From an uncultured Clostridia bacterium (GTDB lineage Bacteria > Bacillota > Clostridia > Christensenellales > Aristaeellaceae): DNA of 40,040 bases. Under the pieces are notes generated by a model. It had not been told where the DNA came from, made no database searches, and was given only the letters and a program-made list of their open reading frames with translations. The translations under genes were made by a program, and so were the position numbers. The stretch spans positions 1 to 40,040 of the forward strand of contig CALVTQ010000066.1 of the NCBI GenBank assembly GCA_944362695.1. The letters run 5' to 3'. Positions 16,558 through 18,228 of this stretch are shown here, piece after piece (position 1 is the first letter of the stretch; every line of letters starts with the position of its first letter).

Positions 16558-16586
16558 TTGACAAACGGCCCGTTTGGGCGTATTGT
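16558..16586 (+). promoter_or_regulatory. mgtE promoter
   Basis: Perfect TTGACA (16558-16563), 17 bases, TATTGT (16581-16586). Transcription would start near 16593, about 277 bases before mgtE, giving room for a regulatory leader. Confidence 0.85.
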
Positions 16587-16592
16587 AAACAT

Positions 16593-16800
16593 ATGTTCAG
16601 GCGATGTCTGCATCGCGCGGGACGAACGAAAATCCGCAGGATAAGGAGAGGTGAACGACGTGGACGAGTACCCCAGTAGCATCGCGGGCGAACCCCGAGA
16701 ACGCCGGGCGCTGTGCGCCGACGGCTGCGTCGTGAAGCCTCGTTTTTGAGCATAGAAAACGAAGGATGCGCGCAGCCGGCTTTGCTGCGCGCTTTTTTGC
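16593..16800 (+). promoter_or_regulatory. Structured mgtE leader with attenuator, candidate metal-sensing riboswitch
   Basis: After the promoter the RNA can form hairpin GCGATG/CATCGC (16601-16606 with 16611-16616). A closing helix follows: GAGG/CCTC (16648-16651 with 16738-16741), an internal loop with facing TGA and GAAG, then ACGACG/CGTCGT (16655-16660 with 16728-16733). Inside lie hairpins GGCGC/GCGCC (16707-16711 with 16715-16719) and CGGG/CCCG (16685-16688 with 16694-16697). CGGCTGCG (16722-16729), which includes part of the closing helix, is fully complementary to CGCAGCCG (16771-16778), the 5' arm of the terminator. This gives a two-state switch: closed aptamer with terminator, or antiterminator. 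I do not see the conserved M-box core, so the class is unassigned. Confidence 0.65.
16768..16798 (+). terminator. Attenuator terminator in the mgtE leader
   Basis: GCGCGCAGC (16768-16776) pairs with GCTGCGCGC (16784-16792), a 9-bp GC-rich stem followed by six Ts (16793-16798). It lies upstream of, not after, mgtE, so it is a regulatory attenuator. It may also stop addA read-through. Confidence 0.92.
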
Positions 16801-16869
16801 GCCCATTTGAGCCGTTCAAGGGGGAACCGGCCTGCATTTCACGACCGAAAATGACAGGAGGGATTCCCG

Positions 16870-18228
16870 ATGGAGGAAGAAATTCGCAAGGATTTTCTGG
16901 AGCTGATGGCGCTCATGGAGAAGGGCGACATTCAGGCATTTAAGGAGAAGGCGTATGAGTGCCTGCCGGTGGACATCGCCGAGGGACTCGAGGAGGTCGA
17001 GGACAGCGCGCATGTGATCAAGCTGTTCCGCATGCTGCCCAAGGACATCTCCTCGGACGTGTTCTCCTACATGACCAGCGAGCAGCAGCAGCTCATCGCC
17101 GAGAGCGCGACCAACGCCGAGCTCAAGGCGCTGGTGGACGACATGTTCATGGACGACACGGTCGACTTCCTGGAGGAAATGCCGGCCAACGTCGTCAAGA
17201 AGGTGCTGCAGAACGCGGACGAGAACACGCGCGCGGTCATCAACCAGTTCCTCAACTACCCGGAGAACAGCGCGGGCAGCCTGATGACCATCGAGTACGT
17301 CGATCTGCACGACTACTTCACCGTGCGCAAGGCGATGGACTACATCCGCCGCACCGGCATCGACAAGGAGACGGTCTACACCTGCTACGTCATCGACGAC
17401 CAGCGCAAGCTCGTGGGTCAGGTGTCGCTGCGCAAGCTGATCGTCGCGCCGGAGAGCACGTACATCCGCGACATCATGGACACCAACATCATCTCCGCCT
17501 CGACCACCGACGACCAGGAGGAGATCGCCGACGATTTCCGCCGCTACGACCTGACGTCCATCGCCGTATGCGACAAGGAGAACCGGCTCGTGGGCATCAT
17601 CACCATCGACGATATCGTCGACGTCATCCAGGAGGAGAACACCGAGGACATCAAGAAGATGGCCGCCATCATCCCGAGCGATGAGGAATACATGAAGACC
17701 AGCGTCATGAATCTGGTCGCCCATCGCCTGCCGTGGCTGCTGCTGCTCATGATCTCGGCGACGTTCACATCGACCATCATCACGCATTTTGAGCAGCTGC
17801 TCGCCAGCGCGGTCATGCTCACGGCGTTCATCCCGATGCTCATGGACAGCGCGGGCAACTCCGGCAGCCAGACCTCCGTCACCGTCATCCGCAACATGGC
17901 GCTGGGCGAGGTTGAGCTGCGCGACTGGTTCAAGGTGCTCGCCAAGGAGATCGGCGTGGCGGTCGTCTCGGGCGCAGCGCTGGCGGCGGTCAACATGCTG
18001 CGCATGATGATCTTCACCGACGCGGGCCTGCTCGTCTCGGCGACGGTCTCTGTGACGCTGCTGTGCACGGTCATCATCGCGATGATCGTGGGGTGCCTGC
18101 TGCCGATGGGCGCAAAGAAGCTCGGCTTTGACCCGGCGGTCATGGCGAGCCCGATGATCACGACGATCGTCGACGCCTGCGCGCTGCTGATCTATTTCAT
18201 GATCGCCACGATCATCCTCGGCCTGTGA
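16870..18228 (+). CDS. mgtE: MgtE magnesium transporter
   Basis: A 452-residue homodimeric Mg2+ channel of the MgtE family in the cytoplasmic membrane. Residues 1-130 form the helical N domain with many acidic residues. CBS domains lie at about 135-195 and 200-255, the latter ending in GIITIDDIVDVIQEE. About 260-280 is the plug helix, and 280-452 hold five membrane helices with the pore motif PMLMDSAGNSGSQTS (322-336) and the acidic residue in TTIVDACALLIYF near the end. In family members the N and CBS domains close the pore when cytoplasmic Mg2+ is high. GGAGGG at 16857-16862 supports ATG 16870. It sits behind a strong promoter and an attenuated, structured leader, so expression is probably also regulated in the RNA. 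Confidence 0.95.
   Translation: MEEEIRKDFLELMALMEKGDIQAFKEKAYECLPVDIAEGLEEVEDSAHVIKLFRMLPKDISSDVFSYMTSEQQQLIAESATNAELKALVDDMFMDDTVDFLEEMPANVVKKVLQNADENTRAVINQFLNYPENSAGSLMTIEYVDLHDYFTVRKAMDYIRRTGIDKETVYTCYVIDDQRKLVGQVSLRKLIVAPESTYIRDIMDTNIISASTTDDQEEIADDFRRYDLTSIAVCDKENRLVGIITIDDIVDVIQEENTEDIKKMAAIIPSDEEYMKTSVMNLVAHRLPWLLLLMISATFTSTIITHFEQLLASAVMLTAFIPMLMDSAGNSGSQTSVTVIRNMALGEVELRDWFKVLAKEIGVAVVSGAALAAVNMLRMMIFTDAGLLVSATVSVTLLCTVIIAMIVGCLLPMGAKKLGFDPAVMASPMITTIVDACALLIYFMIATIILGL

Follow-up and report, generated by a model that had tools for sequence, protein, structure and literature searches.

A candidate Mg2+-responsive leader-peptide attenuator upstream of mgtE in an uncultured Clostridia bacterium

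In Gram-positive bacteria, leader control of the Mg2+ transporter gene mgtE is usually ascribed to the M-box. For mgtA of E. coli and Salmonella, the control passes through translation of a short leader open reading frame (ORF), mgtL, in which acidic and proline residues at the start cause ribosome pausing or drop-off that is countered by Mg2+, so that low Mg2+ turns mgtA on (PMC11282234, PMC11552253; here and below, what we attribute to a cited paper refers to the parts of it available to us). In the Salmonella mgtQ leader, Asp2 and Glu5 impair leader translation and favour the pairing of region 2 with region 3 (PMC8092293). Here we analyze the leader of an mgtE gene in a stretch of 40,040 nucleotides (nt), one whole contig that we call the window, from an uncultured Clostridia bacterium of the family Aristaeellaceae and the order Christensenellales (assembly GCA_944362695.1, contig CALVTQ010000066.1, positions 1 to 40,040). 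The gene (16870..18228; all features described are on the + strand) encodes a Mg2+ transporter of 452 aa with Pfam MgtE, MgtE_N and CBS domains above cut-off. With a probability of about two in three, we propose that its leader is a leader-peptide transcription attenuator of the MgtL/MgtQ type that responds to Mg2+. The kind of system is known, and the interest comes from its breadth, from the swap between mgtE and corA, and from a fixed CGA codon.

The leader and its conservation in the genus

The leader, about 200 nt between the promoter and an intrinsic terminator that precedes mgtE, contains an ORF (16660..16749), MDEYPSSIAGEPRERRALCADGCVVKPRF, that starts with GTG and runs for 29 codons to a TGA stop (16749). 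An earlier sequence-only reading of this DNA overlooked the ORF, which spans the aptamer proposed there. The ORF is preceded by a Shine-Dalgarno (SD) sequence, AGGAGAGG (16644..16651), and its peptide has a Met-Asp start, opening MDEYPSSIAGEPRER..., with acidic or proline residues at D2, E3, P5, E11, P12 and E14. It is conserved in 19 same-genus genomes. All 15 of the first genus loci show an SD, about 8 nt, GTG, and an ORF stopping after 27-35 codons; the SD of each of these 15 printed leaders contains AGG, with variable adjoining bases. The genus consensus is M-D-[DE]-[YHT]-P-[SG]-[SN]-x-A-G-x-P-R-E-R-x-A, where Pro5 is absent in L014 and L015. Four more species agree with it, with small deletions in two of them (L024, L026). 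Of the 19 leaders, four carry an insertion or deletion in the first 54 nt (L014, L015, L024, L026), and in all four the frame is kept. We are confident that this is a conserved leader ORF that is translated.

Past codon 17 or so, the reading frame drifts between species of the genus. This drift bears on the possibility that the ORF encodes a small protein acting in trans on the transporter, in the manner of MgtR or MgtU, with the terminator as a separate element. Leader ORFs do persist over genera, and M-boxes in mycobacteria have small conserved ORFs of unknown role behind them (PMC12810186). A protein acting in trans is nevertheless very improbable here: only the first part of the ORF is conserved, the frame of its second half drifts even inside the genus, the ORF overlaps the switch helices, the peptides of mgtE and corA leaders differ, and none of seven peptides tested has a Pfam or NCBIfam match.

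A DNA search matches approximately 16648-16731 in same-genus genomes only (15 of 41 relatives). At E <= 0.01, the search matches 20 of 29 genus genomes, one of them apparently spuriously; that match, L027 (E = 0.0098), shows none of the motifs sought, and we excluded it from the alignment. The covariance model R1, built from the remaining 19 genus leaders (row L026 is misaligned at the 3' end), finds one strong match per genome (E <= 2.4e-13) in 19 of the 29 genus genomes, all other matches having E >= 0.088. Among 297 genomes of the order it finds the window itself only, under strict filters that lose weak matches. The leader lies directly 5' of all 18 orthologous genus mgtE genes detected (79-100% identity), and a nineteenth leader (L007) lies so close to the end of its contig that only the beginning of mgtE is present. 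The ten genus genomes without the leader lack an orthologous mgtE as well (G004, G022, G015, G023, G002, G016, G020, G006, G012, G021); nine have a distant MgtE only (26-31%) and one has none at E <= 1e-40. Seven of these ten genomes have sizes of 3.4-5.0 Mb, and because of this the genus may be mixed.

The sequence-only reading had also described a consensus promoter, a closing helix, an antiterminator and a strong terminator that exclude one another with the logic of an OFF switch, and this part of it is well supported. The sigma-70-type promoter TTGACA-17-TATTGT (16558..16586; TTGACA at 16558, 17 nt, TATTGT ending at 16586) has 10 of 12 consensus matches, and TTGACA-like and TATTGT-like motifs can be recognized by eye 5' of 14 of the 15 printed genus leaders, L008 being the exception. 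Region 1 (16655..16663) is the 5' strand of the closing helix and holds the GTG start codon. Region 2 (16722..16733) combines the 3' strand of the closing helix (16725-16733) with the 5' strand of the antiterminator (16722-16729). The closing helix ACGACG (16655-16660) / CGTCGT (16728-16733) is exact, and so is the antiterminator, in which CGGCTGCG (16722-16729) is complementary to CGCAGCCG (16771-16778). The latter is region 3, the 5' arm of the intrinsic terminator (16768..16798), and the 3' arm is region 4; the terminator hairpin (16768-16792, -17.4 kcal/mol) is followed by six T. A second small hairpin (CATTTC..GAAAATG; 16835..16853) directly 5' of the mgtE SD is kept in the genus, where the pattern is present in 17 of 19 loci, and it may add control of mgtE translation.

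Taken alone, the window leader is not beyond chance. Its folding energy has a z of -0.61 relative to shuffles, 46 of 200 of which fold as well, and at least one 8-nt perfect inverted repeat appears in 55% of 300 shuffles, with the observed four reached by 6.3%. The leader stands above chance because it is conserved, through both-side changes in the closing helix and an antiterminator pairing kept in relatives. The closing helix is changed on both sides at 3 pairs among the 19 species. When the 19 leaders are folded jointly with RNAalifold, this helix appears along with a pair of short inner hairpins; the latter show no both-side changes and form no part of our proposal. A C arm can be recognised in 13 of the 19 species, and in every one of these the antiterminator pairing is intact, with changes on both sides in three. 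Nine species have arms GGCTGCG/..CGCAGC, three have GGCCGCG/..CGCGGC, one has a wobble, and there are no mismatches at the varying pair (one-sided P of 0.014, if rows were independent).

The sequence-only reading suggested a divergent M-box or a ligand-binding aptamer of a new riboswitch class, and a new riboswitch class is also what we first considered. This was set back because the conserved core reads as SD, GTG and ORF, and because the covariance model fails beyond the genus. Conservation is highest over the first 17 codons of the ORF, indels there stay in frame, and leader ORFs persist in the order where the RNA model has no match. We find no covarying RNA core across a wide phylogeny, as the model matches 19 of 29 genus genomes and one of 297 order genomes (strict filters). 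No Rfam family reaches the gathering score across the whole window, and neither does the M-box (RF00380), whose conserved core the sequence-only reading had also not found, even though the same search finds the M-boxes of relatives; a permissive Rfam search of the leader returns Thr_leader only, with E = 9. The case for a metal-sensing riboswitch in this genus, either a new class or a far M-box for which the ORF is incidental or secondary, is made by the strong RNA-level conservation inside the genus, by the covarying closing helix with its OFF-type expression platform, and by the first codons of family leaders, described below. Set against it are also the frame-specific selection around the CGA codon and the Asp/Pro leader ORFs found on corA. 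We consider a riboswitch improbable, and the evidence favours translation over a ligand-binding aptamer.

M-boxes and Met-Asp leader ORFs are found in tandem. Among 118 hand-chosen mgtE loci, RF00380 is found in 14 (L055, L056, L058, L077, L079, L094, L096, L098, L104, L110, L119, L123, L141, L159), and in at least eight of these (L055, L056, L058, L077, L079, L104, L110, L119) a leader ORF lies between the M-box and mgtE, so both controls can sit on one gene.

The CGA codon and selection on the reading frame

Codon 13 of the window leader is the rare Arg codon CGA (16696..16698), placed after Pro12 (CCC) and invariant in genus leaders. Genus and family-type leaders that have Pro-Arg always write this Arg as CGA (18 of 18 in the genus, and 22 of 22 among 25 family-type leaders), although the codon accounts for 1.5-2% of Arg codons in the mgtE genes behind them; of the other 51 leaders, five use CGA for an Arg after Pro and two use AGG. 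CGA makes up 7/356, 7/476 and 43/881 of the Arg codons in the corresponding mgtE genes, and 4/183 of those in four window genes. Beyond the genus, a CGA occurs at codons 10-18 in 40 of 76 leaders. The residue before it is Pro in 27 of the 40 and Gly in 11, and the residue after it is Ser in 25. The codon lies 36 nt from the start in the window leader, and 30-51 nt in relatives. The tRNA-Arg genes of this genome have anticodons ACG, CCG, CCT and TCT; TCG was not found in the assembly, which is 83% complete, and CGA should then be read by inosine wobble. Inosine-wobble reading of CGA is slow.

Selection on the reading frame is clear around CGA. For the four codons around it in family leaders, anchored by codon (17 distinct blocks), the ratio of non-synonymous to synonymous changes (pN/pS) is 0.57 in frame versus 1.38 and 3.02 in the other two frames, and synonymous codons are spread as Ser AGT/AGC or TCA/TCG, Pro CCT/CCC/CCG, and Val GTG/GTT/GTA. 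In genus leaders (16 codons, 13 distinct), pN/pS is 0.53 in frame versus 0.74 and 1.87.

A fixed codon of this kind raises the possibility that the same attenuator answers to another signal: the charging of the CGA-reading tRNA, the supply of arginine, or a general slowing of translation. In favor of this are the fixation of CGA after Pro in both genus and family leaders, and that, given the tRNA-Arg genes found, only wobble by the ACG tRNA can read it; a precedent is Salmonella mgtP, which senses charged tRNA-Pro (PMC8092293). However, one isolated CGA would make a poor sensor of an amino acid, and an early CGA is missing from the Pro-x-Pro mgtE leaders of the Tissierella/Clostridium type. 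No run of more than two of any one amino acid, which would indicate a trp-type attenuator, is found in the window leader. Together with the transporters on which these leaders sit, this makes a signal other than Mg2+ rather unlikely.

Leader ORFs of mgtE outside the genus and of corA

In other genera of the family, an SD-led ORF occupies the same place in 28 of 29 mgtE loci (L030-L058) under relaxed rules, as in MDDHGHDAGVPRS..., MDDGERCPVSEGVPRSS... and MDEGGRCLTTEGVPRSC... A stretch between leader ORF and mgtE resembling CATTCTTCACACA..CGAACGTC appears by eye to be conserved in L042, L047, L049 and L050. Twelve further and mostly less similar family upstreams, which stand outside the set of 146 loci used below, have a leader ORF by eye in eight cases (not in L067, L069, L071, L072). 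In other families of the order, 18 of 25 mgtE loci have a leader ORF under the relaxed rules, examples being MDAGSSSGTSGSTGHIPRC..., MDAGGSSCGTHTDGYPRRS... and MDGNGKCGPGEAMPGRSR... A GTDB scan with the MgtE profile gives 80 loci, 75 of them usable, with a leader ORF in 31 of the 75 by the relaxed rules, including Tissierella simiarum (MDSGPLPSCS...), Clostridium tetanomorphum (MDTDPEPKRC...) and C. cuniculi (MDDIPLKNN...). Across the phylum, we find leader ORFs in 15 of 29 closer and 17 of 40 more distant mgtE loci, the latter hand-picked from a longer list, with examples MDADPGSSS..., MDGDPGS... and MDPLPR... At nine loci (L102, L107, L108, L115, L117, L118, L126, L137, L079), the stop of the leader ORF falls within mgtE, about 6-8 nt past its assumed start, which suggests translational coupling rather than termination at those loci.

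These counts are far above those of controls. SD-led Met-Asp ORFs of 18-45 codons are found in 73 of 146 mgtE upstreams, versus none in either the 146 reverse complements or 125 stretches taken downstream, and a mean of 2.1 (maximum 4) in ten sets of shuffles; the loci share ancestry, since the set contains genus leaders and other relatives, so these comparisons do not amount to independent trials. Under relaxed rules, the count is 89 of 146 versus 0 reversed and a shuffle mean of 4.7 (maximum 7), and for the distant set 17 of 40 versus 1 of 40 reversed and a shuffle mean of 1.1 (maximum 4). If at least two D, E or P are required at residues 3-8 of a Met-Asp ORF, we count 37 of 146 versus 0 reversed and a shuffle mean of 1.6 (maximum 5), and in the distant set 12 of 40 versus 0 reversed and a shuffle mean of 0.1. 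The ORF filter (SD regular expression, lengths and start codons) was loosened from the strict to the relaxed mgtE counts and again for the order corA count described next; controls were run for the two mgtE counts and none for the corA count.

Leaders of the same kind sit on corA, an unrelated Mg2+ transporter family. CorA is found at E <= 1e-20 in 26 of 60 family genomes. Of the 27 CorA matches, 26 had their upstreams scanned (L313, at a contig start, was left out), and seven of these 26 corA upstreams, those of the seven best-scoring CorA, have a leader ORF: MDPEPRPS, MDGDPYST, MDADPYSC, MDGDPYPP, MDGDPYST, and MDADPYSR twice. Among the eight family genomes that have a CorA at E <= 1e-45 and no MgtE, meaning no match at E <= 1e-60 (G170 and G195 were additionally tested at 1e-40), six have a corA leader. 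In the order, 13 of 27 further corA have a leader, often very short (MDPDPRPKKIRCNN, MDPDPYSRNCLG, MDADPYNSIYID), under looser rules with a minimum of 10 codons and M-E-[DSNP] allowed; these are 27 of 30 order loci, the other three being already in the family corA set. Short Asp-Pro leader ORFs (MDPDPRPKKIRCNN, MDADPYS..., MDGDPRS...) are seen on corA at L288-L294, L346, L351, L354, L356, L362 and L367, and several corA loci with Asp-Pro leaders sit in genomes without a close MgtE.

The corA leaders also separate the two traits of the window leader. Of 20 corA leaders, six have CGA at codon 6 or 8 and not one has it at codons 10-18, so the trait shared by mgtE and corA leaders is the Asp/Pro start, and a late CGA is a trait of this order's mgtE leaders. 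The absence of the late CGA from corA leaders and the presence of leaders on two unrelated Mg2+ transporter families both speak against tRNA charging or arginine as the signal, whereas dnaA control upstreams have a leader-type ORF in only 2 of 29 cases, without the Asp-Pro pattern (29 of 30 dnaA loci, the upstream of L330 being too short). For the attenuator we propose, it is probable that Mg2+ is the signal and is sensed through translation of the leader.

Proposed mechanism and comparison with known systems

In the proposed mechanism, the surroundings of the leader start codon form region 1, which pairs with region 2 near the end of the ORF; the alternative partner of region 2 is region 3. 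When Mg2+ is ample, a ribosome would traverse the leader ORF, leaving region 1 and passing region 2. The 1:2 helix would then re-form, or region 2 would be covered, and the 3:4 terminator would stop transcription. When Mg2+ is low, ribosomes would falter early, presumably at Asp2-Asp/Glu3, at Pro5, and at Pro12 with CGA. A stalled ribosome, a newly initiating one, or both would hold region 1 open, allowing 2:3 to form and mgtE to be transcribed. A ribosome waiting at CGA and the next one at the start codon, about one ribosome apart, may jointly cover region 1. That the leader ORF attenuates transcription is, in our judgment, highly likely.

We folded the window leader with assumed ribosome footprints. 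In the full leader without a ribosome, 1:2 and the terminator each have probability 1.00; covering region 1 lowers the terminator from 1.00 to 0.65 and raises 2:3 to 0.34. Before the 3' arm of the terminator has been made, 2:3 is favoured in five of five cases (0.74-0.90), including the ribosome-free one.

Several results weigh against a Mg2+-responsive attenuator. In the ribosome-free fold without the 3' arm of the terminator, 2:3 has 0.90 and 1:2 has 0.00, so the OFF state needs 1:2 to be formed first in transcription, or region 2 to be covered by a ribosome reaching the stop. With a single ribosome placed at codon 12/13, neither 1:2 nor the terminator is opened, which is why we propose the queuing role for CGA. 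A recognisable C arm was not found in 6 of the 19 species, and when arms are shuffled with their composition kept, the real antiterminator duplex outdoes 95% of them in no more than 3 of 18 species. Frame-specific selection, clear around CGA, is not clear at the start of the ORF: in 28 family leaders, pN/pS is 0.77 in frame versus 1.44 and 0.81 for codons 3-6, and 0.81 versus 1.19 and 0.75 for codons 3-8, a result that also counts in favor of a riboswitch. A family test giving 0.54 versus 1.51 and 1.58 was anchored by an amino-acid motif, and so is biased towards translation. Within the genus, CCC, CGA and GAA are invariant at their third positions while the pS of mgtE is 0.41, and part of the conservation therefore lies at the RNA or codon level; this extra constraint on genus leaders may include a direct contribution of the metal. 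The window peptide, with D2, E3, P5, E11, P12 and E14, is milder than the EPDP of MgtL. No such ORF is present in 52 of the 146 mgtE upstreams, including 44 of the 75 of the GTDB scan, and two of the eight CorA genomes without a close MgtE have no corA leader (G333, G355). Finally, for every member of the group we infer both leader translation and Mg2+ dependence from sequence.

In its widest form, the proposal is that there is a Bacillota-wide and so far unnamed class of Met-Asp leader ORFs in which the ribosome serves as the Mg2+ sensor for mgtE or corA, often replacing the M-box. The mgtE leaders of the order would have a second device, a CGA after Pro (or Gly) at codon 11-18; at this distance, roughly the length of one ribosome from the start, it would make ribosomes pause or queue. 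The mgtL/mgtQ/corL solution would then be found in two phyla, by convergence or great age. We give this wider proposal an even chance. A leader ORF of mgtE or corA in Bacillota was not found in the open-access literature, to which our search was directed (subscription journals and preprints were outside its scope). If the proposal holds, ribosome faltering on early acidic and proline residues would be a general gauge of Mg2+ rather than one confined to enterobacteria, and a testable function would be gained for many mgtE and corA leaders in which no element is known. It would also illustrate how a conserved structured leader can be an upstream ORF (uORF) mistaken for a riboswitch, for which ilvB-II is a precedent (PMC11109978).

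Among described systems, candidate cis elements known as the mgtE motif (Thioalkalivibrio) and the corA motif (gamma-proteobacteria) also precede these genes (PMC11109978, PMC6429828); they are from other taxa and presented as RNA motifs, unlike the window leader. The M-box RF00380 is likewise an OFF switch before mgtE, and differs in that the window has no match to it. In Mycobacterium abscessus, the mgtE leader has a short uORF, protected by ribosomes in ribosome profiling, together with an M-box (PMC4974804), and an M-box with a conserved uORF is also described at M. tuberculosis pe20 (PMC12810186). The M. abscessus uORF differs from the window ORF in belonging to Actinobacteria, in its peptide and in its M-box, and an Asp/Pro or CGA feature is not reported in the available parts of that paper (PMC4974804).

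The features of the MgtL/MgtQ type are a closer fit. The leader of this Mg2+ transporter gene contains a short ORF with an SD, acidic and proline residues in its first codons (M-D-E-Y-P), and mutually exclusive structures that overlap the ORF, for which the composition control is mostly non-significant. Its terminator is intrinsic, unlike the Rho-dependent termination of mgtL and corL or the sequestration of a ribosome-binding site (RBS) in mgtQ; Rho sites were not searched for. The corL leader ORF of corA (E. coli, Salmonella) resembles the window in its Mg2+-dependent target and in the inverse expression of leader and corA (PMC11552253); it differs in its phylum and in having, according to that paper, fewer acidic and proline residues. 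Like mgtQ, between mgtC and mgtB in Salmonella, the window leader has acidic early codons (2 and 5 in mgtQ), region 1 in the ORF, and the 1:2, 2:3 and 3:4 pairings (PMC8092293); mgtQ has 8 codons and frees an RBS for translation control, whereas 3:4 of the window is a transcription terminator. Like mgtL, the window has a short 5'-leader ORF with acidic and proline residues after Met and mutually exclusive structures (PMC11282234, PMC11552253), a likeness by features. It differs from mgtL, which acts on mgtA, in its intrinsic terminator, in its gene mgtE, in its phylum Bacillota, and in the CGA codon fixed after Pro.

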